Virus record (IMG/VR): IMGVR_UViG_3300032046_005540
Location: 104,268 to 168,267 of that record
Length of the DNA stretch: 64,000 bases
Strand: one strand, 5' to 3'
Source: a virus
The notes under the pieces are model-generated. The model had not been told where the DNA came from. It ran no database searches and saw only the letters and a list, made by a program, of their open reading frames with translations. A program made the position numbers and the translations under genes. The number at the start of each line of letters is the position of its first letter. The first letter of the stretch is position 1. Of this stretch, positions 10,349 to 30,488 are shown in pieces.

Positions 10349-11119
10349 TCACTTTATTTCTTTAAGATGATTAAACATAGATTGAGGAATCGATAAGTAA
10401 ACACCATCTACAATATTTTTAACAACATCAATAACCTTATTTGCTTGCAGTAAAGTATAAGTTGTAAAATCTTTATCCGAAATCTCTTTAAATGTATTTA
10501 AATAATCTTCAGGAATAACAACACCAGGAATTTTTGATAAATTATCTAAATGATTTTTAGATTTTGGAATCATTATACCTAATAACACAGGTAAATTATA
10601 TGGTTCTATTTCTTTTAAAAATTTTAATGCTTGACTTATAGTAAATACAGGTTGCGTTTGAAGGTAATCAGCACCAGCATCTATTTTACTTTGTAAATAT
10701 TTGTGATCTATATTATTCGGATCTACGGCAACACCAACCAAAATATTATAAGACTTTACTAACTTAATTACATCAACTATACACGCCCCACTCCAAAATC
10801 CTTTACTATGAGGATCCCCAGATAAAACAAGTATTATATTTACACCAATTGATGCTGCCTGAAGCATATCAGATCTTATTATAACTTCAGATCTCCCAGA
10901 AAGAGGATAATGAACAATTACTTTAAAGCCTTCGGATATCAAATATTGTGCAGTATAAAGAGCTGGTAATTTAGGTTTTCCCATTGGATTAGAAACAACA
11001 CTAATAGTATCAATACCTACTTCTTTAAGTATTTTAATATGTTGAGATAGTTCTTTTAAATTTCCACTACCCGGAGGAATAATTTCAACAACTTTTGTAA
11101 AATTTGAAAACAATTTCAT
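10349..11119 (-). CDS. Methylenetetrahydrofolate-reductase-like protein (MetF family)
   Basis: The 256-residue protein has family blocks in order. The EIIPPGSGN start (12-20) corresponds to the EVxPPR of MetF. LSGDPHSKGFWSGA (99-112) corresponds to the LRGDPP segment. DAGADYLQTQPVF (147-159) is the folate/FAD-side motif AGAxFxxTQxxF. LLGIMIP (179-185) and KIPGVVIPE (196-204) follow. Cellular MetF reduces 5,10-methylene- to 5-methyl-tetrahydrofolate. Length is slightly shorter than usual. Its start overlaps the stop of a glycosyltransferase gene (ATGA), tying it to the glycan island. Why a phage would carry it is unclear; methyl or one-carbon supply is a possibility. The fold is well supported; activity is not shown. 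Confidence 0.7.
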   Translation of the reverse strand: MKLFSNFTKVVEIIPPGSGNLKELSQHIKILKEVGIDTISVVSNPMGKPKLPALYTAQYLISEGFKVIVHYPLSGRSEVIIRSDMLQAASIGVNIILVLSGDPHSKGFWSGACIVDVIKLVKSYNILVGVAVDPNNIDHKYLQSKIDAGADYLQTQPVFTISQALKFLKEIEPYNLPVLLGIMIPKSKNHLDNLSKIPGVVIPEDYLNTFKEISDKDFTTYTLLQANKVIDVVKNIVDGVYLSIPQSMFNHLKEIK

Positions 11120-12105
11120 ATTTGCCTCATTACTTCTAAATATTGGTTAACTCTAGTGGTAATTGTATGATTTTTCATTACTTCTTCCTGACCACATTTT
11201 GCTATTTGTTCTCTTTCATCGTCATGTTCTAAATAATATATAACTTTAAATTTTAAATCTTCAATTGTTCCATCATAAGTTACTAAATGTTTCCCAGGAA
11301 TAAAAAACTTTTCAAGATTATCCATAGGAGGACAAATGAAAAAACATCCACAACCCATTGCTTTAAAAATTCTATCCGAAATTTTCCAACCCATATTATC
11401 TTTTATTACATGAAGAGTATCAAATGTTATTTTAGATTGCCTATAAACATTAGTCATTTCAGAACCATAAAGACATTGGTCGGAAGAATTTTCAGATATA
11501 TTTCCAATAACCTTAACTTTACAAAAATCTTTTAAAGTATTAATACATTCCTCTCTCCTAAAAATGTTACGGCCTCTTTGCGAATTGCCTATAAAACAAA
11601 TGTCATAAATTTCATAATTAGTATCTAACCTTTCAATTAAAGGTTTATAATATGTTTGATCATAATATTGGGGCAAAAACACTGCATTTTTTGCATAATC
11701 TTTTAATATTTCTGCCATTCCTTCAACTGATGTTATAATTAAATCAAATACTCCTTTATATCTACCCCAATATCCTAAATCATTTTTTGGTTTATAAGCA
11801 TCAGCATTCCATAAAACTAACTTAAATCCCAATTGTGATATTTTTTCAAAAAACTCTCTTGGTTCAACTCCTGCTCCAGTTACAAATACATAATCTGGAT
11901 TAAATAATTTTACTGATTCAACCATATGAGTTTCATAGTTATATTTGGCAGTACCAGGAGGCAAAGGATGTTCATAGGGTAAACATCTTTCTGGCTCAAT
12001 TAAACATTTAACTAAAACTTCATAGCCCAAATCTTTCATTTCCCGAGCAATCAAAAGACCATTTTGATAAGGCAAATTACAATAAACAAATGTTACTATT
12101 TTCAA
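11116..12105 (-). CDS. Glycosyltransferase, CgeB-like
   Basis: The 329-residue protein has a two-lobed GT-B look: a short N-terminal strand-helix start (KIVTFVYCNLPYQNGLLIA), a middle VFVTGAGV and LVLWNADAY block, and a C-terminal lobe. That lobe has ICFIGNSQRGRNIFR, then SDRIFKAMGCGCFFICPP and LVTYDG followed by a YYLEHDDEREQIA helix. These blocks are typical of the CgeB/Glyco_trans_1_2 family, which includes a Bacillus spore-surface glycosyltransferase. Close paralogues lie at 13124-14080, 14077-15018 and 23351-24280. Stops and starts overlap on both sides. Donor and acceptor are unknown. Confidence 0.75.
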   Translation of the reverse strand: MKIVTFVYCNLPYQNGLLIAREMKDLGYEVLVKCLIEPERCLPYEHPLPPGTAKYNYETHMVESVKLFNPDYVFVTGAGVEPREFFEKISQLGFKLVLWNADAYKPKNDLGYWGRYKGVFDLIITSVEGMAEILKDYAKNAVFLPQYYDQTYYKPLIERLDTNYEIYDICFIGNSQRGRNIFRREECINTLKDFCKVKVIGNISENSSDQCLYGSEMTNVYRQSKITFDTLHVIKDNMGWKISDRIFKAMGCGCFFICPPMDNLEKFFIPGKHLVTYDGTIEDLKFKVIYYLEHDDEREQIAKCGQEEVMKNHTITTRVNQYLEVMRQI

Positions 12106-13127
12106 AAATCACCCCCATCAATCACTTTTTGAAAAACATCTAAATACTGGGATTTTAAAACATTCCAAGAAAATTTATTCTCAATAATTTCTCTATTCCT
12201 TTTAGATACTTCTTTTAAATCAATGTTCATTACAAAATTTATCTTAAAAACGAAATCATCTAAATCTGGTTCATAAACAACCTTTTCTTCACCAAAATGT
12301 GAATTATTTTTAACTTTTATAAGAAATTTTTTATCTTCAACAACTTCATTCATTGGAGGAGCATCAGTTGTTATAACAGGAAAACCACAAGCCATTGCTT
12401 CATATATAGGAAGGCCATTTCCTTCAAAATGTGATGGTGCTAAATAAATATCTCCTTCTTTATAAAGATCCATTATTTCAGGTTTTTCACCTACTCTTAA
12501 ATCAACACCCTCAAGGCAGCCATATTTTTCAAGAGGAACTTGAGAATTTATAATTAACTTCACCTTCTCTTTATCTAACTTTTGAAAAGCTCTTAAAACT
12601 AAATCAGTACCTTTTCTTTTAAAATCTACATAACCAGCATTATGTAATAATACTTTGTTTTCCCCTCTTTGAATAAATTTAAAATAATCTGTATCAATAG
12701 GATAAGGTAAATAATAACATTTCCATCCTTTAGATTTTATTATATTATAACTCCACTTATTAACACAAAGCCACAAATCTACAAAATCTTTATACTTTTC
12801 AAGAATAGGTGTTCTTACACTATCTAACATAGGAATATAAACAATTTTAATTCCTTTTTCTTTTAAAATTTTTAAATAATCCCAACAAAAAGGATATTCT
12901 ATTATCAAAACAACATCTAAACCAAAATTTATAAATTTTTCTAAAGCTTCTTTACTCAGATTTTCTTTTGAAGTTATTACAAAACTACATCTTAAATCAT
13001 TTAAATTAGTGCCTTTTGCTTCCCATCTTATAACAAGTTGACTATTAATTTCAAGATGTTTCCTAAAAAATTTTAACATTACTCCTAAACCAGAGTTATT
13101 AGCATATCCTATTGTGCCTATTCTCAT
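12102..13127 (-). CDS. Glycosyltransferase family 4-like
   Basis: The 341-residue protein has a Rossmann-like N-terminal half (LRCSFVITSKEN, DVVLIIEYPF) and a canonical GT4 C-terminal lobe. That lobe shows LLHNAGYVDFKRKGTDLVL, then GDIYLAPSHFEGNGLPIYEAMACGFPVIT, which contains the E-x7-E nucleotide-sugar-binding motif (E in FEGN and E in YEAM). GT4 enzymes are retaining transferases using activated sugars. It differs from its CgeB-like neighbours and overlaps both by 4 nt. The acceptor is unknown. Confidence 0.8.
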   Translation of the reverse strand: MRIGTIGYANNSGLGVMLKFFRKHLEINSQLVIRWEAKGTNLNDLRCSFVITSKENLSKEALEKFINFGLDVVLIIEYPFCWDYLKILKEKGIKIVYIPMLDSVRTPILEKYKDFVDLWLCVNKWSYNIIKSKGWKCYYLPYPIDTDYFKFIQRGENKVLLHNAGYVDFKRKGTDLVLRAFQKLDKEKVKLIINSQVPLEKYGCLEGVDLRVGEKPEIMDLYKEGDIYLAPSHFEGNGLPIYEAMACGFPVITTDAPPMNEVVEDKKFLIKVKNNSHFGEEKVVYEPDLDDFVFKINFVMNIDLKEVSKRNREIIENKFSWNVLKSQYLDVFQKVIDGGDF

Positions 13128-14080
13128 AATTTTAGTTTTTTCTTAATAATTGAAAGGTATCTACCAACACTTTTATCAATAGTATATTTATCAAAAATTT
13201 CTTTTTGCCCTTTTAATGCTATCTTTTCTCTCGCATCTTCGTGTTTTAAATAATAATCAATTTTCTCTAACATTTCTTCTTTAGTATGAAAAACATCAAG
13301 ATGTTTTTTAAGAATAAAAAGCTCTTCAATTCCTGGAATATATTCAGTTAAAAGAAAACATCCACATCCCATAACCTGATACATTCTAACAGAAAATTGT
13401 AGGTTGTAATTTAATTCTCCTCCAGAAATCATATTCAAACCTATTTTAGATTTCTTATAACAATCTGCTATAAATTTTCCATCATAATTAATAACACTTC
13501 CTAAAGAACTAAATCCCCATCCAACAATTATTGTTCTATATCCCTTTTTAACTATTTCTTTAAGGTATTCTTCTCTTTGTAGAGAACAAGGCGTTTTATT
13601 ACCTACAAAAATAACATCATCTGCTTTTGCTAAAATATTATCTGATTTATAATAAGTATGATCAAAAAAATGAGGACTCCAAACAACTTTATCTGTATAA
13701 GGTTTTGCAATCTCAATATGCCCTTTCATTGTAGTTATAAATAAATCAATAATATCAAACGCTTCTAAAAATAAATGTTTTGAATTTTTTTGATTAAGCC
13801 AATAAGCATCTGGATGCCATATTACAATTTTTGCTCCCAAACTTTTTAAACATTTAATAATATCAAAGCCTCGATTTATTCCTCCAGTCTGAAATACAAA
13901 ATCAGGTTTAAATTCTAAATAAAGAATTCTAATTTGTTCTGCTGATTGATCAAAAAATCCAATAACAATTTCATGCCCTTGTCTTTTTAACTCTTCTACA
14001 ATTCTAATACCATCCTGATATTCATTCAAACCATTGCAAGTTTTAAAAGGAAACCTTTTTACAATCACTAATATCTTCAT
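13124..14080 (-). CDS. Glycosyltransferase, CgeB-like (paralogue)
   Basis: This 318-residue protein is clearly paralogous to the next upstream gene (14077-15018). Both share KPDFVFQTGG/QPDFVFQTGM, KIVIWHPDAYWL/KLVMWYPDAYWL, a TDKVVW(S/A)PH(F/Y)FD block, QVMG(C/S)GCFLLTEYIP and HLDVFHTKEEM. The pair looks like a recent tandem duplication followed by divergence. The CgeB-type GT-B fold predicts sugar transfer to protein or glycan. The gene overlaps both neighbours by 4 nt (ATGA), so translation is coupled. Confidence 0.75.
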   Translation of the reverse strand: MKILVIVKRFPFKTCNGLNEYQDGIRIVEELKRQGHEIVIGFFDQSAEQIRILYLEFKPDFVFQTGGINRGFDIIKCLKSLGAKIVIWHPDAYWLNQKNSKHLFLEAFDIIDLFITTMKGHIEIAKPYTDKVVWSPHFFDHTYYKSDNILAKADDVIFVGNKTPCSLQREEYLKEIVKKGYRTIIVGWGFSSLGSVINYDGKFIADCYKKSKIGLNMISGGELNYNLQFSVRMYQVMGCGCFLLTEYIPGIEELFILKKHLDVFHTKEEMLEKIDYYLKHEDAREKIALKGQKEIFDKYTIDKSVGRYLSIIKKKLKL

Positions 14081-15018
14081 AAATATACTCTCTTTTTAAT
14101 TACATCTAAATATTGATTTACACGGGCATCAATGTCATGTTTTTCCATTACCTCTTGATATCCTTGTATAGCTATTTTTTCTCTAATCTTTGGATGTTCC
14201 AAATAATAATCAATTTTTTCTATCATTTCTTCTTTAGTATGGAAAACATCGAGGTGAACTCCAGGAATAAACATTGTTTCAATATTAGGAATGTATTCAG
14301 TTAAAAGGAAACATCCACTTCCCATAACTTGATACACTCTAACTGAAAATTGTAAATCACAATTAAATATACCTCCAGAAACTATATTTAATCCTATTTT
14401 AGAACTTTTATATGCTTTCGCAATATGCTCTCCATTCCAATCTGCTTTAGTTTCTTCATCATTAATAGTAAAACCATGCCCGACAACTTTTAACTTATAC
14501 TTTTTCTCAAGCTCTTTTAAATATTCTTCTCTTTGAGGAGATGCTTCAGTTTTTCCTCCAATAAAACAAATGCCATTTTCTTGCTTAATATTCTTATTTG
14601 TTTTAAAAAAAGTTGAATCAAAATAGTGAGGAGCCCAAACTACCTTATCAGTATAAGATTTTGAAACTTCAACATGACCTCTCATTGTAACTAAAAACAA
14701 ATCAAACACGTTAAAAGCATCTAAAAAATAAGATCTGGAAGGTTCTCTAAATAACCAATAAGCATCAGGATACCACATTACTAATTTTGCACCTAAATCT
14801 TTTAAACTATTTTGAACTCCAAGGTTACCTTTTGAATGTCCCATTCCTGTTTGAAATACAAAATCAGGCTGAAATTTTCTATATCTTGATATATAATCTT
14901 CTATTGATTTTCCAAAAGAAGCAGTATGAGTTTCATGACCCAATCGAGATAACGACTCTTGTATTCGTATTCCATCAGAAAAAGAATTTTTAGTTTCTAT
15001 GATTAACATTATTTTCAT
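14077..15018 (-). CDS. Glycosyltransferase, CgeB-like (paralogue)
   Basis: The start at 15018 is preferred: it gives MKIMLIIETKNSF, which aligns with the starts of the paralogues, and a GAAGG site precedes it. The frame can be extended to 15078, but only into the upstream gene. The 313-residue product matches the 13124-14080 protein block by block, including DAYWL, TDKVVWAPHYFD and GSGCFLLTEYIP. The C-terminal helix VNQYLDVIKKR corresponds to the family end. It follows the FkbM-type methyltransferase gene with a 2-base gap. Confidence 0.75.
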   Translation of the reverse strand: MKIMLIIETKNSFSDGIRIQESLSRLGHETHTASFGKSIEDYISRYRKFQPDFVFQTGMGHSKGNLGVQNSLKDLGAKLVMWYPDAYWLFREPSRSYFLDAFNVFDLFLVTMRGHVEVSKSYTDKVVWAPHYFDSTFFKTNKNIKQENGICFIGGKTEASPQREEYLKELEKKYKLKVVGHGFTINDEETKADWNGEHIAKAYKSSKIGLNIVSGGIFNCDLQFSVRVYQVMGSGCFLLTEYIPNIETMFIPGVHLDVFHTKEEMIEKIDYYLEHPKIREKIAIQGYQEVMEKHDIDARVNQYLDVIKKRVYL

Positions 15019-15020
15019 AT

Positions 15021-15767
15021 TTACATACCTTCTACAAAAGGATCTACATCTCTCCATAAGAGTAAAATACATGGCCAATCTTTAGTTTTATTCATTAATT
15101 GTTTACTAGATCTTAAATCAATTATACCATCCTTACATATTCTACCATATGAAAAACCTAATTTTTCAACTAAATTAAAAAATTGTAATTCAGTAAAACC
15201 AGCTAATTCGTAATGACGATTACTGAGTTCACACACCATTACTAATTTAGAACTGCGATTAATAAGATTTTGAAGTCCTTCAATTACCCCAACCTCAGCA
15301 CCATCTACAACAATTTTAATAAAATCTGCTTTCTCAACATTTTGTAAAATATCATCTCCAACAGCTACTTCTAAATCTAATTCTTTTTTATTTTTATAAT
15401 AAGAAACTCCAGTCTTATTATGTAATCCAAAATTAAAAGGTTTAATATTTTTATATAATTCTGAATTCTTTACAAGAACCTCATAAGTACCGAAAAATGG
15501 TTCAAAAGCATAAATAATTCCTGTTTCTCCTATTTTTTGAGAAGCCATTACAGAATATATTCCTACATTTGCACCAACATCAATACAAGTCATTCCTGGT
15601 TTTAAATATTTACCTACAACATCAAGTTTTTCATTTTCATAAGTACCTAACTTAATACATTTGCTAACAAAATAATCACTACCCACTCTAACTTTTTCAT
15701 CTTTTTTGGCTTCATCATCTTTATCAAGAAGCCACATTTTTCCTACAAAAGTATCAACTAATTCCAT
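15021..15767 (-). CDS. FkbM-type SAM-dependent methyltransferase
   Basis: The start at 15767 is chosen because AAGGAGAATAATA precedes it. A longer frame to 15815 would read through the upstream gene's end. The 248-residue protein has motif I as CIDVGANVGIYSV, the post-I acidic strand as IIYAFEPF, and KIVVDGAEVGVIEGL. These are typical of FkbM methyltransferases (usually IDVEGxExxVLxG). FkbM enzymes O-methylate sugars or small molecules. Lying among glycosyltransferases, it probably methylates a sugar hydroxyl of the glycan built by this island. The variant VDGAE replaces the usual DVEGxE. Confidence 0.75.
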   Translation of the reverse strand: MELVDTFVGKMWLLDKDDEAKKDEKVRVGSDYFVSKCIKLGTYENEKLDVVGKYLKPGMTCIDVGANVGIYSVMASQKIGETGIIYAFEPFFGTYEVLVKNSELYKNIKPFNFGLHNKTGVSYYKNKKELDLEVAVGDDILQNVEKADFIKIVVDGAEVGVIEGLQNLINRSSKLVMVCELSNRHYELAGFTELQFFNLVEKLGFSYGRICKDGIIDLRSSKQLMNKTKDWPCILLLWRDVDPFVEGM

Positions 15768-15778
15768 TATTATTCTCC

Positions 15779-16519
15779 TTACGGTTTTTGTAAAACTACT
15801 CCTACAGGCATGCATCTCGACACATACATTGGATATGTTTTACAAAATTTTGAAAAAAGAGTATCAAAATTATCAAAATTATCTTTATCATTTAATAATT
15901 TTAAACCAGTATCTTCAATTAATTCTTTAATTTTGTCTGGAGTATAACATGTAATAATTGGATCCGCAGGACTTCCATACCATGTCTTAAACTCTTTGTA
16001 AGCTTCTAAAGTAAAAACAATTCTACCCCCAGGTTTTAAAATTCTATCTAATTCTTTAAATATAATTTTTGCATCTTCTATTGGATTATGCTCTAAAGAA
16101 CTACAAGAAACAATATGATCAAAAAAATTACTTTCAAAATTTGTACATTTTAAATTTTGACAAGAAAATCTCAGGTCTACATCAAATTGTTTTTCTTTTT
16201 CTTTTGACCACTCTTCAATATGACTACCTCTTCTATCTACAGTATATAATTCATAACGTTTTGCTAAAAAAATTTGAAAAACTCCTCTACCACATCCAGC
16301 ATCCAAAATTTTATCTTTTGGAAGAAATGCAGCCTCTGGTATTGCTTTTACTGGAAGATGCCAGTATATCCAAGGATAGTCTAACATATATTGGCTTATA
16401 GCAAGGCTTTCTTCAGCTTCTTTAATGCTATGGCTTGTTCTACATATTTCAATCAATTCCTCATTTACTCTTTGATATTCAAATGTATTTTTCAAATCAA
16501 TATCTAATAATTCTATCAT
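15779..16519 (-). CDS. SAM-dependent methyltransferase (class I, type 11)
   Basis: The 246-residue protein has motif I ILDAGCGRGVFQI, an acidic post-I residue in YTVDRRG, motif II-like HIVSCSSLEHNP and motif III ILKPGGRIVFTLEA. These are standard for class I methyltransferases. It is a clear paralogue of the upstream gene at 16537-17259; both start MIELL and share ISxYMLDYPWI and a PIITCYT block. The gene ends with CCGTAAGGAG, which doubles as the ribosome binding site of the FkbM gene. The substrate is probably a sugar or glycan, by context only. Confidence 0.75.
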   Translation of the reverse strand: MIELLDIDLKNTFEYQRVNEELIEICRTSHSIKEAEESLAISQYMLDYPWIYWHLPVKAIPEAAFLPKDKILDAGCGRGVFQIFLAKRYELYTVDRRGSHIEEWSKEKEKQFDVDLRFSCQNLKCTNFESNFFDHIVSCSSLEHNPIEDAKIIFKELDRILKPGGRIVFTLEAYKEFKTWYGSPADPIITCYTPDKIKELIEDTGLKLLNDKDNFDNFDTLFSKFCKTYPMYVSRCMPVGVVLQKP

Positions 16520-16536: not shown

Positions 16537-17259
16537 TTATTTTGTTTTTGAAAAAATTACTCCTAAAGGAATAAATTCCCTACTTTTACATACCGAATAT
16601 TCATTAAATATATCTACAATAATTTCTTCAATTTGATTAAAATTATTACCAGAATTAAACAAATATAAATTTGTATTTTCAATTAATTCTTTTATTTCTT
16701 TTTCAGTATAACAAGTTATAATAGGATCTCTAACAGATGGATAAATAACTTTAAATTTTTTCCAAGCAACCAAAGTAAAAATAATTAATCCCCCAGGCTT
16801 CAAAATTCTATCCATTTCTTTAAATATTAATTTAACATCCTCAAAAGAATTATGTTCTAATGAACTACATGAAACTATATAATCAAAAAAATTATCTTCA
16901 TAATTAGTATTTTTTAAATTTTCTTCTTTAAAATTAATTTTTATATTAAATTGTTTTTCTCTTTTTACTATCCAAGAATTATAGATTTCTTTTCTCTTAT
17001 CACAATTATAAACTTCTGCTCCTTCCAAAGCTAAATATAATTGAAGCGTTCCTATTCCTCCTCCAGCATCCAAAATTCTCTTTCCTGAAATTTCTGGTAA
17101 ATGAATTATAATCCAAGGATAATCAAGCATATATGATGATATTGCTAATCCTTTTTTACCTTGCAATTTAGTTACTTGTGTATAAATATTAAGTAATTTT
17201 TTACTTATTTCTTGATATTCTTTTCTATTTTTAATGTTAGAGTTTAATAACTCAATCAT
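16537..17259 (-). CDS. SAM-dependent methyltransferase (tandem paralogue)
   Basis: The 240-residue protein has motif I ILDAGGGIGTLQL, the acidic post-I strand YNCDKRK, YIVSCSSLEHNS, and ILKPGGLIIFTLVA. It aligns along its whole length with the next gene downstream (15779-16519), so the two arose by tandem duplication. Its ATG overlaps the stop of the aminotransferase gene by one base. Two similar methyltransferases may act on different positions of one sugar, or one may be drifting. No motif residue is lost. Confidence 0.75.
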   Translation of the reverse strand: MIELLNSNIKNRKEYQEISKKLLNIYTQVTKLQGKKGLAISSYMLDYPWIIIHLPEISGKRILDAGGGIGTLQLYLALEGAEVYNCDKRKEIYNSWIVKREKQFNIKINFKEENLKNTNYEDNFFDYIVSCSSLEHNSFEDVKLIFKEMDRILKPGGLIIFTLVAWKKFKVIYPSVRDPIITCYTEKEIKELIENTNLYLFNSGNNFNQIEEIIVDIFNEYSVCKSREFIPLGVIFSKTK

Positions 17260-18503
17260 TATTCTCCTCCATATACTTTATTTACAATTTCAATCAAATT
17301 TTCCGAAACATAATCAATTTCAGACATTGTTATTTCTGTTGCAGTAGGGATATAAAATCCTGTTTCCATATATTCTTCAGCTTTTGGATATCTTTGTCCT
17401 TTAAATTTTTCATAATAAACTGGCTGAAGATGCATTGGAACAAAAAAAGGTCTTGTTTGAATTCCTTTATCCGCTAACATCTTTCTTACTAAATTTTTCT
17501 TTCTACCATCTCTAGGAGATAAAATCACCTCAAACATCCAACAAACTGGACATACATCTGACTCTGGAGGATAGTTTGGTATTACTATGTGCTTTTCTCC
17601 TTGAAAATTTCTAATATATGAATTCCTTGTTATCTTCCTTCTCTCTATTATTTCATCTAATCTTACTAATTGAGCCCTTCCCAAAGCTGCCTGAAGAGCA
17701 GTTAATCTATAATTAAATCCAACAAGTCTATGATAATAATGTCTTTCAGAACCAAAAGCATGATTTATTAAAGTTCTAACACGATTAGCAACATCAGCAT
17801 CATTTGTTGTAATCATTCCTCCTTCCCCGCATGAGACTAATTTCGATGCGTGTAAAGAATATGCAGCAATATCTCCTATTCCTCCAACTATCTTACCTTT
17901 ATAAGATGCGCAATGACCTTCAGCAGCATCTTCAACTACAAGGAGATTATAGTTATTTGCAATTTCTAAGATTTTTTCCATCTTACAAGGATACCCAGAA
18001 ATATGAACTGGAATAATTGCTTTTGTTTTTTTAGTAACTTTATTTTCAATTTTATTCACATCAATATTTAAATGTTCATCAGCATCTACTAAAACTGGAG
18101 TAGCTCCACAATAAATTACTGTTGCAATAGTAGCTATAAAAGTATAAGCTGGAATAATAACTTCATCTCCAAGTCCTATACCAAAAGTTGTTAATGCTAA
18201 ATGTAAAGCGCTAGTTCCATTAGAACAAGCTACTGCATAATTAACGTCCATCTTATCAGCAAATTCTTTTTCAAACTTTTTCACTTCTGGCCCTATGGAA
18301 GAAATCCATCCAGACTCTACTACATCATAAATGTATTTCTTTTCCAAACTACCAATAAAAGGTTCACAAACATAAATTTTAGCTTTCCCCATTGGTCTTT
18401 TATCTTTCAAAATTTCTTTAACTTCAGGTTCAATATCTGGAAAAACTAATCCAAGTTCTTTTTCAAATTCCATAGAAGCTTTTTCAGGCAATTTTAAAAG
18501 CAT
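17259..18503 (-). CDS. DegT/DnrJ/EryC1/StrS-type PLP-dependent sugar aminotransferase
   Basis: The start at 18503 follows a GGAAAG site; the frame extends to 18536 only by entering the upstream gene. The 414-residue protein shows SNGTSALHLAL (94-104) for phosphate binding and VVEDAAEGHCASYKG (189-203). The Schiff-base lysine K221 lies in YSLHASKLVSCGEGGM. Late motifs GFNYRL and ALQAALGRAQL follow. This family transfers an amino group to keto-sugars, for example in perosamine or viosamine synthesis. It adds about 40 extra N-terminal residues to the usual family start. It suggests that the island makes an amino sugar, although the matching dehydratase is not in the window. Confidence 0.88.
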   Translation of the reverse strand: MLLKLPEKASMEFEKELGLVFPDIEPEVKEILKDKRPMGKAKIYVCEPFIGSLEKKYIYDVVESGWISSIGPEVKKFEKEFADKMDVNYAVACSNGTSALHLALTTFGIGLGDEVIIPAYTFIATIATVIYCGATPVLVDADEHLNIDVNKIENKVTKKTKAIIPVHISGYPCKMEKILEIANNYNLLVVEDAAEGHCASYKGKIVGGIGDIAAYSLHASKLVSCGEGGMITTNDADVANRVRTLINHAFGSERHYYHRLVGFNYRLTALQAALGRAQLVRLDEIIERRKITRNSYIRNFQGEKHIVIPNYPPESDVCPVCWMFEVILSPRDGRKKNLVRKMLADKGIQTRPFFVPMHLQPVYYEKFKGQRYPKAEEYMETGFYIPTATEITMSEIDYVSENLIEIVNKVYGGE

Positions 18504-18516
18504 TTTTTCTTTCCTT

Positions 18517-19020: not shown

Positions 19021-19032
19021 TCTTTTTTTTCT

Positions 19033-23351: not shown

Positions 23352-24280
23352 TATAATACCTTCTCAATTTCCTTTAAATATTCCCGAACTCTAATATTAA
23401 TTGTATGGTCTTCTAAAACTCTCTGTTGACCACTTCTTGCTATTTGTTCTCTTTCATCTTCATGCTCCAAGTAGTAATCAATCTTATCATATAAATCTTT
23501 TTCACCATCAAATACTACTAAATGTTTTCCATTATCAAATAATTGATTTAAATCTATAATATTTTGAGTTAAACAAAACGATCCACAGCCTAAAATCTTA
23601 TATATACGATCAGACATTTGAAGAGAACAAGGATTTAGCACTGTAATAAAATTCAAAGCAATTTTTGAATTCCTATATATATTTGCAATTTCTTTAGTTT
23701 CCACAGCAATACTTGGAACATTAAATCCTCTTCCAACAACTTTTATTTTATATTTTTCATACAACTTAGGAATACACTCATTCCGATCTGGAGAAATACC
23801 CCCGTTATTATTTCCGATAAAACATATATTATATATTTCACATTTTGGATCCAATCTTTCAATATTTGGTTTATAATAAGTTTGATCATAATATTGAGGT
23901 CCCCAAACAACTTTTTTAGCAAAACCTTCAAGTTGAGGAACAATTCCTTTTACTGCAACTAAAATTAAATCAAACTTTCCTTTTACCTGTTTAAAAAACT
24001 CAGTATCTGGAGAAAAGGTAGGCCCATACGCATCTGGATACCATAAAACTAATTTATGTCCTAATTGTTTTAAAGGCAATAAATGTTGAGGAGAAGCAGT
24101 TCGTCCACCACATTGTAAAACGAAATTAGGTTTATATTGTTCTACACTTTTAACAATTTCAGAAGAAGGAGCACCGACTGGGAAAGTAAAAACTTCATGT
24201 CCTTCTTCTCTAAAAACTCTCGCCATAAGCAAACCATTCTGATTTGTCGAGTGTAAAGGAGCTAAAATAAATATTTTCAT
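23351..24280 (-). CDS. Glycosyltransferase, CgeB-like
   Basis: The start at 24280 is preferred because GAGGA lies 7 bases before it and the product begins MKIFILAPLHSTNQNGLLMA like its paralogues; the frame extends to 24292. The 309-residue protein matches the 11116-12105 protein: NGLL(I/M)A near the start, KLVLWYPDAYGP, a DQTYYKP-x-IERLD segment, ICFIGN, SDRIYKILGCGSFCLTQ, and YYLEHEDEREQIA. It overlaps no gene upstream beyond the ribosome binding site. CgeB-type sugar transfer is inferred. Confidence 0.75.
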   Translation of the reverse strand: MKIFILAPLHSTNQNGLLMARVFREEGHEVFTFPVGAPSSEIVKSVEQYKPNFVLQCGGRTASPQHLLPLKQLGHKLVLWYPDAYGPTFSPDTEFFKQVKGKFDLILVAVKGIVPQLEGFAKKVVWGPQYYDQTYYKPNIERLDPKCEIYNICFIGNNNGGISPDRNECIPKLYEKYKIKVVGRGFNVPSIAVETKEIANIYRNSKIALNFITVLNPCSLQMSDRIYKILGCGSFCLTQNIIDLNQLFDNGKHLVVFDGEKDLYDKIDYYLEHEDEREQIARSGQQRVLEDHTINIRVREYLKEIEKVL

Positions 24281-24288
24281 TTTAATCC

Positions 24289-24807
24289 TCAATAAGGATA
24301 AATTTTCGAAATCTTTTTTGCTTGAACACCTAAATCATAAAAATATGCATTAGATCTTGGATCTCTTCCACCAATTTCAAAACCAGCACTTTCAACCAGG
24401 TCATCTAATCTTTTTCTGTCAAATGTTAATCGATGAACATTCTCTCCATACTCTTGATTTCCAAATAGTAATCTACTAAATTCTGCACAAGGTATTTTAC
24501 CTTCTATATAATCTTTAGCAATTTTTTCAGCATCAGGACAATAAATTCTCAATACCCCTTCTGATTTCAAAATTCTATACCACTCTGCTAATGTTTTTAT
24601 TATTTTATTTGGATGAATATGCTCTATTGTATGAGATATTCTAATTTCATCTACTGAGTCATCTTTAAACATTGGTAAGTCTGTAATATCATGTATAATA
24701 TCAACTCCCGGAAGATTCCTTATATCAATATTAGTAAAACCTATTAATATAGGAGATCCAGGACCTCCTTCATACTTTTCTGCTCCTCCTAAATTTAATT
24801 TCAACAT
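24289..24807 (-). CDS. Small SAM-dependent methyltransferase (COG4627-like)
   Basis: The 172-residue protein starts LKLNLGGAEKYEGGPGSP and continues with GFTNIDIRN, SVDEIRISHTIEHI and RILKSEGVLRIYCPD. These are the SAM-binding loop, acidic residue and later motifs of a compact methyltransferase. It is similar in plan to the one at 18517-19020 but only distantly alike. A homing endonuclease gene lies directly upstream and its stop overlaps this start by 7 nt. The likely target is a sugar, by context. Confidence 0.7.
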   Translation of the reverse strand: MLKLNLGGAEKYEGGPGSPILIGFTNIDIRNLPGVDIIHDITDLPMFKDDSVDEIRISHTIEHIHPNKIIKTLAEWYRILKSEGVLRIYCPDAEKIAKDYIEGKIPCAEFSRLLFGNQEYGENVHRLTFDRKRLDDLVESAGFEIGGRDPRSNAYFYDLGVQAKKISKIYPY

Positions 24808-25505
24808 ATTTTTCCCAAAACTTCAATTTCTTTTAAATCTTTTATAACAATCAATTTTAAATCTTTATATCCATATTCATTTAACAATTTTCTTCTTTTT
24901 GTATAATACTGTTTATCAGTTAATTTAAAATCAAATGAATGAAATTCAACTACAATTTTATCATTTATTAAAAAATCAAACCTATTTAAAAAATTATGTT
25001 TAACTTTAAAACCTAATTCTTTTAGTTTTATATAACAATCTTTTTCTGATAAAGAAGGGAAAAATTCATTGTCATAATAACATTTCTTACCATGACTATT
25101 TCTTAATGAGCGTTGGATAGCTTCTGGAGTACTATATATAAAATTTTCTCTTTTTTTCAATGTATCACTAATTTTCTTTTTTGTTTTTTCAGAATGGGGA
25201 ATATCTTTATTCCAAGAAGATATGCCTATATGAGATTTGCTCATATTTCTTTTCCATTCTTTAGAAAAAGGAGGACGTTTTTTACCTTTTCTTGACTTAC
25301 TTATTTTTTCTCTAACTTCTGGTCTTTTTGCCGGATTATTTTCACCAACAAGTTTTCCTTTATTCTTTTTACTTATTTTCATTTTTGTTTTATTAGAATG
25401 ATGTTCCCCATAAAAAGGATTTCTTACACCTTTGTGAGAACAAACAGCACATCTCTTAGCTAATCTACTAATTTCTTTTTCACAATCAATACAATAATTT
25501 TTCAT
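24801..25505 (-). CDS. Putative homing endonuclease, zinc ribbon plus NUMOD, second type
   Basis: The 234-residue protein has a zinc ribbon (CIDC at 5-8, CAVC at 19-22) and repeated NUMOD3-like modules (RNPFYGEHHSNKTKMKISKK, GENNPAKRPEVREKISKS, WNKDIPHSEKTKKKIS). Its C-terminal domain is different from the EDxHD group. It shows FPSLSEKDCYIKLKELGF, FDFLINDKIVVEFHSFD and LKLIVIKDLKEI, suggesting a PD-(D/E)xK-like or Vsr-like active site (E, D, E-x-H). A close relative is encoded at 55644-56204. It lies between a glycosyltransferase and a methyltransferase gene, overlapping the latter's start by 7 nt. Confidence 0.7.
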   Translation of the reverse strand: MKNYCIDCEKEISRLAKRCAVCSHKGVRNPFYGEHHSNKTKMKISKKNKGKLVGENNPAKRPEVREKISKSRKGKKRPPFSKEWKRNMSKSHIGISSWNKDIPHSEKTKKKISDTLKKRENFIYSTPEAIQRSLRNSHGKKCYYDNEFFPSLSEKDCYIKLKELGFKVKHNFLNRFDFLINDKIVVEFHSFDFKLTDKQYYTKRRKLLNEYGYKDLKLIVIKDLKEIEVLGKIC

Positions 25506-25506
25506 A

Positions 25507-26448
25507 TTATATTTTTTCTAAAAGCTTTACAACTTTATTATTATTATTTTCCATCACTGAAACTGCTATATTCTTTGATAAGATACACAAATCTTTATAC
25601 AAAATAGAATCAAAATAAATTTTTTTGATCTTCTCTCCTATTAAAATAGGGTTATCAAGATTTTCAATAAAACAAAACTTTTTTAAAGTAGAATCTTCAA
25701 CATACCAAGATATACTAGGACTAACAACTGAAGGAATACTCAACATTGCAAGTTCCCAAGTCGAATAATTAAAACTTTCGCTAAACGAAATCTGTATTCC
25801 CAATCTTACAGTATTCATTAAATCTAAAAGTTGTTGCCTTTGTAATCTTGGGTATAACGTAATATTCTTCATATCAAATAAATTTGCAAAAAATTGGCAC
25901 ATTTGAACTTTTTCTTGTCCTGTTATAACAAAAGGATCTTCAACGCTTGAATATTTTATTGCTCCAAACATTGTTGCTAAATTTTTATGTTTATCTGAAG
26001 TCCCAAAAAAACAAATACTTTTCCTATCTTCTACATTAAAACTATTTTTTGGTTGCAAATCCCATTGTAAAGCAGGAGGTAAATAAATAATTTTTTCATT
26101 TTTAAAAAGATAAGTTAGCCTTTCTGAAAGTAAAAATATATAATCAATATCTCCACTTTTTAACATATTCTTATATCTTAACAAAGCATCCAAATCCCCA
26201 TTCAAACTTGAAGGAACCACATGAGCCTGAGCTAAAGGAGAACAAAAAAGAACTCCTATTTTCCTTCCTTTCTTCCTTAATCTCAATAAATCAATTTCTC
26301 CAATACCACAAGAAATAATCAAATCTCCATCTTGATCTTGGAGTTGTTCCCAAGGAATATGTTTAGTTTTCCCAGTAACTTCTAAATGTTTTAAGGCCCA
26401 ATAAGCACCAGTATCTTGCCATGCTTGAGGGCAGGTTGTAATTATCAT
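25507..26448 (-). CDS. Glycosyltransferase-like protein, paralogue of 21645-22577
   Basis: The 313-residue protein shares LFCSPLA, DYIFLL, IYLPPAL, QISFSESFNYSTWELAMLSIPSVVSPS and WYVEDS with the protein at 21645-22577, at equivalent places. The N-terminus (IITTCPQAWQDTGAYWALKHL) is shorter. The C-terminal half has a GT-B look, with CFFGTSDKHKNLATMFGA binding region and the SESF-x-Y-x3-E site. A homing endonuclease gene starts one base after its stop, so it is again adjacent to a selfish gene. Donor and acceptor are unknown. Confidence 0.65.
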   Translation of the reverse strand: MIITTCPQAWQDTGAYWALKHLEVTGKTKHIPWEQLQDQDGDLIISCGIGEIDLLRLRKKGRKIGVLFCSPLAQAHVVPSSLNGDLDALLRYKNMLKSGDIDYIFLLSERLTYLFKNEKIIYLPPALQWDLQPKNSFNVEDRKSICFFGTSDKHKNLATMFGAIKYSSVEDPFVITGQEKVQMCQFFANLFDMKNITLYPRLQRQQLLDLMNTVRLGIQISFSESFNYSTWELAMLSIPSVVSPSISWYVEDSTLKKFCFIENLDNPILIGEKIKKIYFDSILYKDLCILSKNIAVSVMENNNNKVVKLLEKI

Positions 26449-26462: not shown

Positions 26463-26642
26463 TTAACTGCTCAAAGCAATTAGTTCACAAAGTTCGTCTA
26501 TGTTTTCTCTTATTTTTCTAATTTCTTCTTTAATCAATCCCCTTATATCTGGTTCTTTATAGGGTAATCCTTCTGTATACAACTCAATTTCTTGAATATT
26601 AAGTTGCAATTTTGTTATTAACATCCCAAATTTAGATATCAT
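26463..26642 (-). CDS. Small helical protein, 59 aa
   Basis: The frame from the ATG at 26642 (preceded by AAAAGGAGAT) to TAA at 26463 encodes 59 residues. It has a hydrophobic-polar helix pattern (MLITKLQLNIQEIELY, then LIKEEIRKIRENIDELCELI). The second helix looks like a coiled coil. It overlaps the preceding gene by 11 nt. No family is recognised; a small adaptor role is possible. Confidence 0.5.
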   Translation of the reverse strand: MISKFGMLITKLQLNIQEIELYTEGLPYKEPDIRGLIKEEIRKIRENIDELCELIALSS

Positions 26643-26979
26643 TATTATCTCCTTTTGGTCCTTTATAATATGTCCCTATCTTTTTTCTATATGCTTTTAC
26701 TCTCCTATATAAAACTTTTGAAAGTTCTTCTGCCTGTTCAGCATTTAACAAAATTTCATCGAAACTAAGTTCAGGTGTTTTCCATCCTTTAATATATTGC
26801 CAACATCTTTTTACCCTTTGCCACAAATTAGCAGGATCACTATATTGAATTTCAAAATAAAATACATCATCATTTTCATAAAATTTTTTATCTACACGAA
26901 CAACCATTTTATCTTCACATCCGGCACACGAACAGTATAATTCAAGTAGATCATCATAATAAGGTTTTATGGTTTTCAT
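26632..26979 (-). CDS. Hypothetical protein, 115 aa
   Basis: The protein has a Cys-rich start (YCSCAGCEDK, residues 15-24) that could bind zinc, then a beta-rich segment (MVVRVDKKFYENDDVFYFEIQY). Helices with Trp-rich ends (LWQRVKRCWQYIKGW) follow and a helix EQAEELSKVLYRRVKAY. This plan occurs in small uncharacterised phage proteins, but I know no function. It lies between two glycosyltransferase genes, close to a short helical gene, and could be a regulatory insertion. Confidence 0.5.
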   Translation of the reverse strand: MKTIKPYYDDLLELYCSCAGCEDKMVVRVDKKFYENDDVFYFEIQYSDPANLWQRVKRCWQYIKGWKTPELSFDEILLNAEQAEELSKVLYRRVKAYRKKIGTYYKGPKGDNNDI

Positions 26980-26992: not shown

Positions 26993-27937
26993 TCAATTTA
27001 TAACTTTTTCAAAAATTTGTTTCCATTTATAAATAAATCGTTCAGGGGGAAATACTTCTTTAACAAGTTGTTTTCCTCTTTGCCCAATTTTTTTTGCTCT
27101 CTCTGGATTTTCTAGTAACTCAATTATCTTTTTTCTTAAATCAGTAGCATTATTTGAAGTTAAAGCATTTATTCCATCTTTTAACAACAAATGCATTTCG
27201 CAACAATCTGTTGAAACTACGGGTGCACCAACTGCCATTGCCTCTAGCAAACTCATAGGAATGGGGGAGGCTGTGGCGGAATTAAAGTAAGCCCCAGCTT
27301 TTACTAATAGCTTTTTTATTTCATCATTGGGCATTAATCCTTTACAAGCCTCCCCTATATTTTCATTACTATAACCATAAACTCTAACATCTTTTAATCC
27401 CCAAGTTGAATTAACCCAAAGTAAATAACCACAACACCAATCTCTGTTTGGAAATTCGTTGCAAACAGTTATTATTGACTTTTCTCCTCCTTCATAATTT
27501 GGAAATTCATTTACATCTATTGCATGATAAATTACAGAATTTTTATCATCCTCTTTCATTCCCCAAGCTTGCATACTTGATTTTGTTATAAAAATAGTAT
27601 GATCAATAAATTTCTCTCTGTTTTCTTTCCAAGTATTCACATTCCAATCGTTATATGGCCAAGTATGCTCTGTAAAAACTCTTGGAATTAATTGAAAACC
27701 TTCCTCATAAGAAGAAATAATAGTTGGATGACGATGAATAAGCATTAAATCAAAATCTTTTTGTTTATCTAAAGCTTCTTCTTTAGAAATCTCAAAAACA
27801 TTATTGGGTTTTGATACTTGTTCATCCCAACAAACTTTATTATTCTCATCTATAATATGATAAAATTCAACTTCTAGAATAGAAGCTAAATTCTTCTGAT
27901 ATGTAGAATGGGCGAAATGGGATAAAATTTTTAACAT
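26993..27937 (-). CDS. Glycosyltransferase, GT4-like
   Basis: The 314-residue protein has KILSHFAHSTYQKNLASIL at its start, FDLMLIHRHPT, HTIFITKSSMQAW, SVIYHAIDVNEFP and a C-terminal lobe with GAYFNSATASPIPMSLLEAMAVGAPVVSTD. The last block is the GT4 nucleotide-sugar site (Ser where the first Glu usually is, Glu in LLEAM). The end, ERAKKIGQRGKQLV, is a typical terminal helix. It follows the next gene with a 3-base gap. The substrate is unknown. Confidence 0.75.
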   Translation of the reverse strand: MLKILSHFAHSTYQKNLASILEVEFYHIIDENNKVCWDEQVSKPNNVFEISKEEALDKQKDFDLMLIHRHPTIISSYEEGFQLIPRVFTEHTWPYNDWNVNTWKENREKFIDHTIFITKSSMQAWGMKEDDKNSVIYHAIDVNEFPNYEGGEKSIITVCNEFPNRDWCCGYLLWVNSTWGLKDVRVYGYSNENIGEACKGLMPNDEIKKLLVKAGAYFNSATASPIPMSLLEAMAVGAPVVSTDCCEMHLLLKDGINALTSNNATDLRKKIIELLENPERAKKIGQRGKQLVKEVFPPERFIYKWKQIFEKVIN

Positions 27938-27940: not shown

Positions 27941-29095
27941 TTATATATTCTCCAAAAACAAATTTAATCTCTCAGCACTTTCTGTCCAAGTCAATTTTCT
28001 ATCTATAAGTTCTTGTCTTTGCTCCAATGCTTTTTCTTTAGCCATTTCATTCTTTTCAAATGAACGAACCATTACTCTCTCAAACTCTTGCCAGTCAGGA
28101 ATTGTAATTTGTTGTGGCGGCTCGTAGACGTGTTGCCAGAAAAGTTCTCTACGTAATTGTTCCCATTTATAGTTTAAAATAACAGTTTTCTCTGGATTTA
28201 AATATGTATCAGGAGCAGTTCCTCCAGTTGTAATTATAGGTAACCCACTTGCTATTGCTTCTATAATAGGCATTCCAAAAGCTTCTCCTGAACTTGGCAA
28301 AATAAACACATCAGCATTATGATACAATTTACTCATATCTTCTGGTGTTAATGCCCCATGAACTAAATAAACTTTAGGCCCCTCCCCCAAACCTAATCCA
28401 GCGTGATTTCTTACAGCATTTATTTTTTCAATACATTGAATTTTATCAATAGTCCCAGCACCTTTTCCATATACTTTTAAAATTAAACCAACATCTTTAT
28501 TAGTTCTAAATGTTTTAAGAAAAGATAAAATCATTTGAGATATATTTTTACGATCTCCAGGAGTCCATTGACCAATACTTAAAAAATTAAATTTTGTAGA
28601 AATTTCTTCTTTTGGAAGTAAAGGTTGTTTATCTAAAGTATACATATCAAAATCAACTCCAAATGGAATTGTAGTAATAGGAACCTTAACACCACTTTCC
28701 ATAAATGTCTTTACATTAAAAGGTGTAGGAACTATACATCCATCTAAACGATTTAAAATATAAGCCCAAGTTGGAGTAATTTTATCAGTTTCCAGCATAG
28801 TAAATCCAAAATATTTTTTATAATTATGAGGCCATTGAAATTCAATAGGAATAGACATATGAATAAGAATACTTTCTTCAGGAGGGTATTCTTTTCTTCG
28901 TAGGAGATCAAGAATTTCACGATCTTCAGGAGATAATTCAATATCTCCAGCAGTTAACCATTGAAGATTTTGTAAAGCAATATCGTAGGAATCTTTGTAT
29001 TTTTTATAAAAAGCTAAAATCAAACTTCTACTTACTGAACCATACCCTGAAAAATTATCTACAGTGGCTCTAAACACTACTTTCTTTTTATTCAT
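27941..29095 (-). CDS. Glycosyltransferase family 4
   Basis: The 384-residue protein is a clear GT4 member: FRATVDNFSGYGSVSRSL at the start, the FNFLSIGQWTPGDRKNISQMI block, VYLVHGALTPEDMSKLYHNADVFILPSSGEAFGMPIIEAIASGLPIIT with complete E-x7-E (E in GEAF, E in IIEA), and a C-terminal helix. Residues 60-100 hold VLIHMSIPIEFQWPHNYKKYFGFTMLETD, a pattern seen in GT4 sugar transferases for glycoprotein or polysaccharide. The sequence is the most canonical of the set. A 43-residue gene lies just upstream. Confidence 0.85.
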   Translation of the reverse strand: MNKKKVVFRATVDNFSGYGSVSRSLILAFYKKYKDSYDIALQNLQWLTAGDIELSPEDREILDLLRRKEYPPEESILIHMSIPIEFQWPHNYKKYFGFTMLETDKITPTWAYILNRLDGCIVPTPFNVKTFMESGVKVPITTIPFGVDFDMYTLDKQPLLPKEEISTKFNFLSIGQWTPGDRKNISQMILSFLKTFRTNKDVGLILKVYGKGAGTIDKIQCIEKINAVRNHAGLGLGEGPKVYLVHGALTPEDMSKLYHNADVFILPSSGEAFGMPIIEAIASGLPIITTGGTAPDTYLNPEKTVILNYKWEQLRRELFWQHVYEPPQQITIPDWQEFERVMVRSFEKNEMAKEKALEQRQELIDRKLTWTESAERLNLFLENI

Positions 29096-29122
29096 CTATA
29101 CTCTCCTTCTTCTATTTCTTTT

Positions 29123-29254: not shown

Positions 29255-29270
29255 TTTAATTCCTTTCTTT

Positions 29271-30488
29271 TTATTTTGTTTCTGGAATTGTGGTAATTGT
29301 GTATTGAGGATATTTTTTCCAACTTACTACAGTTTCTTTCAAAACATTTTCAATATTTTCAACCATCTTCTCTGAAGAATAATTATCAACAATATGTTGT
29401 CTACATTTAGATGCCTTATCTTTTAACAATTCCTTATTAGAATAAGCTTCCTCTAAAGCTTCTAATACATCTTCATCCGATACAAATCTTTGATCAATAT
29501 AAGGAACTTGTTGACTACCAAATTGACTAATAACTTTAGGTTTAACTAACCAACCATTTTCTTCTGTAATTATTCCACCAGATCCAGCGGTCTCTGCGGC
29601 TATACATGGCGTTCCACAAGCCATAGATTCAGCTAAAGGTAATCCAAAACCTTCTGCATATGCAATGTTTATACTTATATCAAACATATTATATAAATGA
29701 GTTAAAAAAGTATCATCCTGACCTCTTGGTTCACTCACCGCAACTGGAAGATCTGGATATAATGTATTTCGAAGATATAACAAATTAGTTCCTTCAGGAT
29801 CAAAAGGACTTGAATGCAAAAACAATAAAACATCTTTTTTATCTTTTGCAAATTTTGAAAATATTCTATAAAGATCTAATATTCTTTTACGTAAAATATT
29901 TCTTCCTACATATCCAACTATAAATTTAAAATCTACAAGTTGAGGTTGATTTTTAAAAATCTCTTTTTTAAAATTAGAAACTGTTTCCTCTGGAAGAATT
30001 TTAAACACTTCAGTATTTACTCCCATAGGAGCATAAAAAATAGGGGTATCTTTATAATTATTGATTAGTAATTCATAAATAAATTTAGATCCGGCGGCAA
30101 TTGCATCTGTAGAACGGTAAAATATAGTATTAAATTTAGGAAAAGGTTGATCATCCCATAAATGATAGAAAACTAAAGGGCAAGCATTACGAATTTCATT
30201 ATCAATTTCAAAAACATGAGTTAAATGTCTTGGATCCGAATTTATAATCATTACATCTGGTTTATGTTCTTTTAAAACAAAACGGATATCATTAATGTTC
30301 GCATAATTATAAACAGAGTAAAGCACCATCCCATTCCAAGGATATGCTTTAAAAGGTCCTGGATTTATAGAACCTGCAAGTATAATAATTTGATGACCTT
30401 TTGCTCTTAAACCTGTTAACAAATCTTTTCCTACTTTACCATAACCAGTTGGAATTGTAGGGGAATCAGAAAGGTATAAAATCTTCAC
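29271..30488 (-). CDS. Glycosyltransferase family 4 with a GTG start
   Basis: The start is GTG at 30488, placed 6 bases after AAAGGAGGC. The 405-residue protein has KILYLSDSPTIPTGYGKVGKDLL at its start, DVMIINSDPRH, FKFIVGYVGRNILRKRILDL and a C-terminal DISINIAYAEGFGLPLAESMACGTPCIA with both Glu of the GT4 E-x7-E motif. It is the first gene of the glycan island, directly after the fibre genes with an 88-base gap that holds no clear terminator. The alternative start codon may lower its expression. Donor and acceptor are unknown. Confidence 0.85.
   Translation of the reverse strand: MKILYLSDSPTIPTGYGKVGKDLLTGLRAKGHQIIILAGSINPGPFKAYPWNGMVLYSVYNYANINDIRFVLKEHKPDVMIINSDPRHLTHVFEIDNEIRNACPLVFYHLWDDQPFPKFNTIFYRSTDAIAAGSKFIYELLINNYKDTPIFYAPMGVNTEVFKILPEETVSNFKKEIFKNQPQLVDFKFIVGYVGRNILRKRILDLYRIFSKFAKDKKDVLLFLHSSPFDPEGTNLLYLRNTLYPDLPVAVSEPRGQDDTFLTHLYNMFDISINIAYAEGFGLPLAESMACGTPCIAAETAGSGGIITEENGWLVKPKVISQFGSQQVPYIDQRFVSDEDVLEALEEAYSNKELLKDKASKCRQHIVDNYSSEKMVENIENVLKETVVSWKKYPQYTITTIPETK

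Follow-up and report, generated by a model that had tools for sequence, protein, structure and literature searches.

A glycosyltransferase island with a fixed core and a probable built-in folate-methyl branch in a myovirus lineage: a putative phage glycan assembly line

Large glycan gene clusters are already known from phages. The Prochlorococcus phage P-SSM2 harbours 24 lipopolysaccharide (LPS) genes in two clusters (excerpt of PMC2984593), and whether such large clusters serve a function or are stuffer has been stated as unknown (passage in PMC3037559). Here, we analyse an island of 23 genes at 30488-10349 of a 64,000-nucleotide stretch of DNA (the window), the right-hand 64 kb of the 168,267-bp virus record IMGVR_UViG_3300032046_005540 (positions 104,268 to 168,267). 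The island consists of 12 glycosyltransferases (GTs), six methyltransferases, one DegT aminotransferase, one methylenetetrahydrofolate reductase (MTHFR), two homing endonucleases and one small open reading frame (ORF), and new about it is a fixed core of 13 genes with a built-in folate-methyl branch. That purifying selection maintains an ordered core in three diverged phages argues for a function in one lineage, and the pairing of MTHFR with the methionine synthase MetE, of which no earlier report was found in searches of open-licence PMC text, would provide a concrete reason for methyl-donor metabolism in a phage, namely the fuelling of sugar methylation.

Like the cyanophage LPS clusters of P-SSM2, S-SSM7 and S-SM2, the island strings together many genes for GTs and sugar modification in the large genome of a myophage. 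Complete cyanophage clusters carry, however, epimerase/dehydratase and nucleotidyltransferase genes (part of PMC7824862), whereas the island is devoid of the epimerase/dehydratase family PF01370; equally, they are located near hli03/phoH and tRNAs (passage in PMC3037559), whereas the island follows putative fibre genes and possesses the 13-gene core with MTHFR. The cultured Flavobacterium phage vB_FspM_immuto (NC_055915; 160 kb) has one block of GTs, WecE-type aminotransferases and a methyltransferase and, as the island phage has deazaguanine genes, also a 7-deazaguanine DNA pathway (DpdA, QueF/GTP cyclohydrolase). On the other hand, its GTs are fewer and include the GT2 family, an epimerase and a pilin-glycosylation-type protein are present, the matched GT is about 30% identical, and no MTHFR is annotated in the 31 kb examined. 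The Microcystis phage Mel-JY01, with GTs, a methyltransferase and an S-adenosylmethionine (SAM) synthase that precedes the first GT by about 3.5 kb, likewise pairs methyl supply with a glycan block, which is, however, smaller and composed of different genes, with SAM synthase instead of MTHFR/MetE. In bacteria, flagellin glycosylation islands place cytoplasmic GTs, DegT enzymes and methyltransferases beside the gene of the decorated filament protein; these islands are cellular and the likeness is in layout only. Glycosylation of mycobacteriophage virions reportedly uses few GTs, whereas a full island is found here.

The record derives from a myovirus, as judged by sheath and baseplate genes, with 181 of 186 ORFs of at least 80 amino acids on the minus strand (seven pieces of the record, the last two overlapping) and a genetic code that looks standard (stop codons in the seven pieces together: TAA 120, TGA 40, TAG 26). 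Transcription runs from right to left, from structural genes over baseplate J (34998-36410, upstream of the putative fibre genes), 33579 and three putative fibre genes into the island and on to a helicase (8188-9669). The original prediction, made from the letters of the window, had described a co-oriented, overlapping set of about 20 kb after the fibre genes with 12 GTs of CgeB and GT4 types, six methyltransferases, an aminotransferase and an MTHFR-like enzyme. This layout is confirmed, as all 23 genes, counting a broken methyltransferase as one, are encoded on the minus strand and 20 of the 22 adjacent pairs overlap or sit within 20 nt of each other. The inventory equally stands, with ten GTs recognized by Pfam, one (21645; genes are named by their lower coordinate) by fold and one (25507) by alignment, and with the qualification that one of the six methyltransferases is interrupted by an in-frame stop codon; two homing endonucleases and the small ORF had been absent from the earlier gene list.

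The original prediction had further proposed a comparison with related genomes, in which homologues turned out to be neither absent nor decayed, with two other full islands and one partial island under purifying selection. One full island, found with the island proteins, is located on IMGVR_UViG_3300032020_000845 (G001), the other, which a scan across 84,980 species genomes revealed, on contig JAGMCF010000218.1 (C133) of genome G003. The record of the partial island, IMGVR_UViG_3300032046_006290 (L042), ends within it; another record (L009), with a 93% identical sheath, stops before the island, and the loci L039 and L040 match the helicase in part, at 30%. The islands of G001 and C133 have the same neighbours as that of the window, with the fibre genes on one side and the helicase on the other. 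Thirteen window genes, the GTs 29271, 27941, 26993, 25507, 23351, 21645, 20662, 19614, 13124, 12102 and 11116, the methyltransferase 24289 and the MTHFR 10349, are reciprocal best hits in both relatives, in the same order and with 48-80% identity, a common order in three records which excludes chance; the first five core genes are found, in order, also in L042. DegT, the FkbM-type methyltransferase, GT 14077 and the methyltransferases 18517 and 19033 are common to G001 only, where FkbM and the 18517-type methyltransferase occupy other places within the island; tailoring genes are therefore mobile, in contrast to the stationary core.

Pairwise dN/dS, the ratio of nonsynonymous to synonymous substitution rates, estimated according to Nei-Gojobori, amounts to 0.17-0.50 over 34 island ortholog pairs, with the flanks alike (0.16-0.63 over 14 pairs). 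Fixed order and purifying selection together indicate that the island has been inherited and selected with the phage and is not recent cargo. That the GT genes are stuffer or decaying cargo, which fills a large head with no common function, has been raised for the cyanophage clusters (passage in PMC3037559), and two homing endonuclease insertions and the stop codon in one methyltransferase would fit such a scenario. The fixed order of 13 genes, the low dN/dS, the tight gene overlaps and the location of the homing endonucleases between genes whose neighbours keep open frames speak against it, and we consider it very improbable.

No close homologue of four island proteins was found by tblastn in 50,697 phage records, with GT 11116 matching one record (29% covered), GT 29271 14 records (best 30%), FkbM 15021 three records (best 26%) and DegT 85 records (all below 60%). 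Mycobacterium cluster C phages and Bacillus phage G are matched by the tail sheath and the baseplate, which reflects distant kinship only, and in Myrna no GT block is annotated in the 49 kb examined. The stretch of Virus Rctr197k that was inspected is annotated almost wholly as hypothetical. The C133 contig is part of a metagenome-assembled genome named Candidatus Cloacimonadota, possibly owing to a binning error; of 124 genomes of the phylum, 1 has the baseplate protein.

Pfam GT families match 10 of the 12 GTs, nine above the curated cut-off. Four GTs (11116, 13124, 14077 and 23351) reach the cut-off of PF13524 only, five (12102, 19614, 26993, 27941 and 29271) that of PF00534, with 26993 above both, and 20662 stays below the PF00534 cut-off (22.9 versus 26.4 bits). 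The first island gene is the GT4-type core GT 29271..30488 (minus strand, as for all island genes below; PF00534 4e-14; phrog_2170 glycosyltransferase 1.5e-36; reciprocal best hits with 74% and 79% identity), followed by the core GTs 27941..29095 (GT4-type; PF00534 9e-14; E-x7-E motif; 78% and 80% in the relatives, 76% in L042), 26993..27937 (GT4/CgeB-like; PF00534 6e-14; PF13524 2e-10) and 25507..26448, and by 23351..24292 (CgeB-type, core; PF13524 4e-26; 80% and 70%). Downstream of the core GT 21645..22577 (75% and 67%) are the GT4-like core GT 20662..21648 (PF00534 7e-5 and TIGR03088 2e-6, both below cut-off; 53% and 48%) and the GT4-type core GT 19614..20672 (PF00534 2e-21; 66% and 62%). 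The distal part harbours the CgeB-type GT 14077..15078, found in two of the three full islands (PF13524 2e-26; 73% to g23364 of G001), the CgeB-type core GT 13124..14080 (PF13524 1e-22; 76% and 63%), the GT4-type core GT 12102..13127 (PF00534 2e-18; phrog_2170 3e-32; 64% and 65%) and the CgeB-type core GT 11116..12105 (PF13524 1e-27; 74% and 67%).

No Pfam family matches the two remaining core GTs, 21645 and 25507, which are mutual paralogues (29%) and have an E-x7-E motif in common, at position 224 in 25507. The AlphaFold2 model of 21645, a confident model with a predicted local distance difference test (pLDDT) of 81.4 and a predicted template modelling score of 0.82, adopts a GT-B fold, and its best PDB matches by Foldseek are sucrose-phosphate synthase and the GT4-type enzymes WaaG, MshA, BshA and PimA (E 3e-9 and weaker). 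Gene 21645 is thus predicted to encode a GT-B glycosyltransferase by fold, and 25507, as judged by alignment and motif, is a GT as its paralogue. Fold and paralogy together confirm the count of twelve.

The last island gene is the core gene 10349..11119 for a single-domain, YitJ-type MTHFR (PF02219 4e-18, 66.3 bits versus a cut-off of 24; 64% and 66% in the relatives), for which the nearest profile is the YitJ-type NF006396 (8e-36, under its cut-off), with NCBIfam equivalog cut-offs not reached. The residues E12, D102 and Q156, which we take to be the catalytic Glu, Asp and Gln, are retained in all five aligned sequences. While the phage protein shares the MTHFR Pfam family and the profile with YitJ, it is a separate protein that lacks the homocysteine methyltransferase half. 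The gene is located right behind the core GT 11116 in each of the three full islands and overlaps this GT by 4 nt in the window. Two of these islands are in addition accompanied by a MetE-type gene pair without counterpart in the window, located inside the island in G001 (18825-19793 and 19787-20770) and just past MTHFR, from which one small ORF separates it, in C133 (9211-10221 and 10218-11213). One gene of each pair encodes the MetE catalytic domain (PF01717 3e-88 and 1e-80; MetE as best PDB match of the G001 copy, 2e-69), and the other is best matched by the MetE N-domain (PF08267), so that, in difference to cobalamin-independent MetE, the enzyme is split into two adjacent genes. HICYGDF, LDLE and PDCG occur in both catalytic copies, with the HxC, E and C positions kept that are presumably the zinc ligands; the N-domain-like copies have no HxC.

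Because both relatives add this split cobalamin-independent methionine synthase, MTHFR, to which the original prediction had given no role, is likely to act in a folate-to-methionine branch that feeds the island methyltransferases, and MTHFR with or without MetE would make more methionine and SAM available to the methylation of sugars. Alternatively, MTHFR might serve the balance of folates or general infection metabolism, in which methionine and SAM go into polyamines or the methylation of DNA, rather than sugar methylation. The link to sugar methylation being a predicted one and a methionine synthase being absent from the window's record, we take this alternative seriously, even if the place of MTHFR right behind a GT in every full island, its 4-nt overlap and the MetE pair within or just past the island make it the less probable; our estimate for it is not exclusive of those for the other readings. 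Extending the folate-to-methionine branch, one can tentatively envisage, with more doubt than belief, a phage lineage with its own one-carbon economy, in which an operon MTHFR, joined by split MetE in two relatives, leads over methionine and SAM to a heavily O-methylated oligosaccharide that coats tail or fibres and is built by a fixed line of about a dozen GTs.

No host donor of MTHFR was found among 121 Candidatus Cloacimonadota genomes, where hits besides C133, in 10 genomes, are weak and partial. The phage records that best match MTHFR (L016, MT835862, and L044, MW495066) look bacterial around the match, with yitJ beside metH or purL, and MetE matches in 10 phage-labelled records (short unannotated, Salmonella and Acinetobacter records) were taken as bacterial by names and sizes; neither was accepted as a precedent.

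The six methyltransferases are SAM-dependent enzymes of different size and distribution. The short core enzyme 24289..24807 (PF08241 1e-6; 57% and 66% in the relatives) and the short accessory enzyme 18517..19020, present in two of the three islands (PF08241 1e-8; 49% to g17285 of G001), are of about equal length in the relatives, and their classification as fragments was rejected. The enzyme 16537..17259 (PF08241 2e-15) is the reciprocal best hit of c15243 in C133 and its 49% identical paralogue and neighbour 15779..16519 (PF13649 5e-15) that of g22648 in G001; in each relative, one or the other of the two finds a counterpart. The FkbM-type methyltransferase 15021..15815 (PF05050 1e-9; 72% to g16543 of G001) is again accessory and found in two of three islands. 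In the accessory methyltransferase 19033..19617, for which G001 has an intact relative of 194 amino acids, the in-frame TGA at 19455-19453 on the minus strand corresponds to a glycine codon GGA in that relative. A single substitution separates the two codons, which reflects either a genuine nonsense mutation or a fault of the assembly. Recoding of this TGA was rejected, as TGA is used as an ordinary stop in the record. The accessory aminotransferase 17259..18536 of the DegT/DnrJ/EryC1/StrS family (PF01041 1e-110, 370.7 bits; 59% in G001; two of three islands) has perosamine synthases as nearest solved structures (PDB 3bn1, 4e-86), and in the PDB alignment a Lys, which we take to be the lysine that binds pyridoxal phosphate, is aligned in the block ahead of EGGM. 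In C133, the island contains a PIG-L type N-acetylglucosamine deacetylase (L026:1057-1680, plus strand), a hint at an N-acetylated sugar in that glycan.

Considering these components together, we put it at an even chance that the island encodes a glycan assembly line in the cytoplasm of the infected cell with a virion protein, probably of tail or fibres, as the most likely acceptor. Up to 12 GT-B GTs would add host nucleotide sugars one by one to the acceptor, DegT would make one amino sugar from a 4-keto-6-deoxy nucleotide sugar of the host, several SAM-dependent methyltransferases would cap the sugars, and MTHFR, with split methionine synthase in the relatives, would push one-carbon units to methionine and thereby SAM for these methylations; the acceptor would most likely be a virion protein, probably the tail or the fibres encoded just upstream. 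That the enzymes act in one pathway is an inference, and so are the sugar donors, the flow of methyl groups and, most of all, the acceptor. A complex, methylated amino-sugar glycan, as suggested by the original prediction, stays the best reading, with the amino sugar itself confined to the two of three islands which carry DegT. PF01370 has no match in the window's record (G000), in G001 or on C133 (17 matches elsewhere in G003), and sugar donors must therefore come from the host. That virions can be glycosylated is documented for mycobacteriophages with glycans on capsid and tail tube proteins (Freeman et al. 2023, according to part of PMC12619734).

Alternatively, the GTs could remodel the host surface by extending or capping a lipid-linked host glycan such as LPS or capsule, which the host would export and which would block superinfecting phages or grazers. 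Such a role has been proposed for P-SSM2-type cyanophage LPS clusters (excerpts of PMC2984593 and PMC7824862), and the best folds of 21645 include WaaG, an LPS core enzyme. A membrane protein candidate was, however, not seen in the island by the peak 19-residue hydropathy of the 23 listed ORFs, a criterion of hydropathy only with no dedicated helix predictor, which for the broken methyltransferase was computed only downstream of its stop. As the highest peaks (DegT 1.84, GT 21645 1.72) belong to soluble folds, no candidate flippase, polymerase or ligase is discernible. Equally, G000 and G001 have no PF01370, unlike complete cyanophage clusters, and the 13-gene core is fixed in three of three full islands, whereas sporadic presence and polymorphism had argued for surface diversification in the cyanophages (part of PMC7824862). 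Furthermore, the fibres of L042 are 45-56% identical to those of the window compared to 73-76% for the first GTs, which argues against a host-strain-specific surface antigen. Absence of membrane candidates and of PF01370 and the position after the fibres favour a virion protein over the host surface, though only moderately; sequence alone does not separate the two acceptors, either of which is putative, and remodelling of the host surface appears possible to us, if somewhat doubtful.

Several points weigh against a dedicated assembly line acting on the virion. Glycan and acceptor are both predictions. DegT and FkbM are absent from the C133 island, and this record has one of the six methyltransferases in broken form. 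Support for the fibre assignment is weak, with a model of pLDDT 62 and a carbohydrate-binding-module-like C-terminus only among the lower-ranked Foldseek matches. Profile searches detected neither the methionine synthase families PF01717 and PF02574 nor a SAM synthetase in the window's record, so host enzymes must finish the methyl path there. Moreover, lipid-linked glycans of the host are substrates also of cytosolic GT4 enzymes, for example WaaG, and the lack of membrane proteins therefore leaves room for a host-surface target.

Of the three targets considered in the original prediction, virion and host surface both remain, while hydroxymethyl-pyrimidine DNA is disfavoured. According to the DNA alternative, the GTs would assemble their glycan on modified bases in phage DNA. 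To our knowledge, a set of 12 GTs and six methyltransferases is larger than any known DNA glycan would require. Phage GTs are known to hypermodify DNA (Pyle et al. 2024, as cited in part of PMC12619734), and the phage possesses its own base-modification genes, encoding FolE2, QueD (PTPS), a radical SAM protein (QueE-like by its position beside QueC), QueC and an ArcS-like protein. These genes are located outside the island (L015:233-1102 and 1053-1481; L014:18603-19274 and 17447-18133; ArcS-like gene at window positions 1503-2294), with QueD present in both relatives and the ArcS-like gene in neither; no DpdA was found among the 47 non-island ORFs scanned with Pfam, only the ArcS-like protein. 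Phage gene sets of this type place deazaguanines into DNA, and the term 'glycosyl' occurs zero times in the cited passages (PMC6884629). The genes constitute a 7-deazaguanine pathway separate from the island, probably for the phage DNA. Thymidylate synthase/hydroxymethylase PF00303 has no match in G000, G001 and the G003 genome, which makes a classical hydroxymethyl-pyrimidine acceptor unlikely. A glycosylated 7-deazaguanine is left as a conceivable acceptor, and glycosylation of DNA as a whole is judged improbable.

The three putative fibre genes (32520, 31503 and 30577) are paralogues, 38-41% alike, and in four of four records the island directly succeeds the putative fibres and shares their strand. 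The third fibre gene of L042 (6512-8575, plus strand) codes for 687 amino acids versus about 309, with an insertion between conserved ends. The gap between fibres and island contains a conserved non-coding element, TGTATTTAATA (30539..30549, minus strand), with a similar element in four of four records; the C133 copy differs by two mismatches in the 11-mer or by one shifted base. By its position, the element is possibly a promoter or leader of the island. Within the window as a whole, the 11-mer shows no enrichment (6 matches with at most one mismatch versus 8.7 expected from shuffles), and promoter-like matches in 29000-38500 do not clearly outnumber those in shuffled sequence (59 versus 52.1, standard deviation 7.9). 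A role as general phage late promoter is unsupported, as the next matches are weak (best 16.8 versus 23-33 for the four gap copies), and the most similar further match, in L010, sits inside a coding region. L010:1-2787 (minus strand) encodes a long fibre- or spike-like protein that runs off the left end of the record and displays about nine near-identical translated repeats of the SGSVLKSLRVQNNE type.

Two free-standing homing endonuclease genes are inserted between island genes, with the reading frames of their neighbours open. The NUMOD3 gene 24801..25505 (PF07460 3e-9) has no homologue in the island of either relative, and the gene 22578..23351, which combines NUMOD3 with a DUF559/Vsr-like domain (PF07460 2e-8; PF04480 5e-7), is equally absent from the relatives' islands. 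Group I introns around them were rejected, since no Rfam match occurs in the window and the genes sit cleanly between their neighbours. The small ORF 26632..26979, without Pfam or PHROG match, is found in addition only in C133 (61% to c25218). Homing-type endonucleases with HNH, NUMOD3 or DUF559 domains are located between genes also outside the island, in the window at 53355-54260, 57298-58284 and 59115-60095, with further ones at L010:2784-3575, 11164-12147 and 13684-14505 and at L013:9170-10207 and 13069-14064. Elsewhere, a protein of 3263 residues (L012:8395-18186, minus strand) is without any Pfam match, a protein of 1078 residues (L013:242-3478, minus strand) contains an intein with splicing domain and LAGLIDADG, and a family A DNA polymerase carries an N-terminal fusion to a uracil-DNA glycosylase domain (L014:12615-15134, minus strand).

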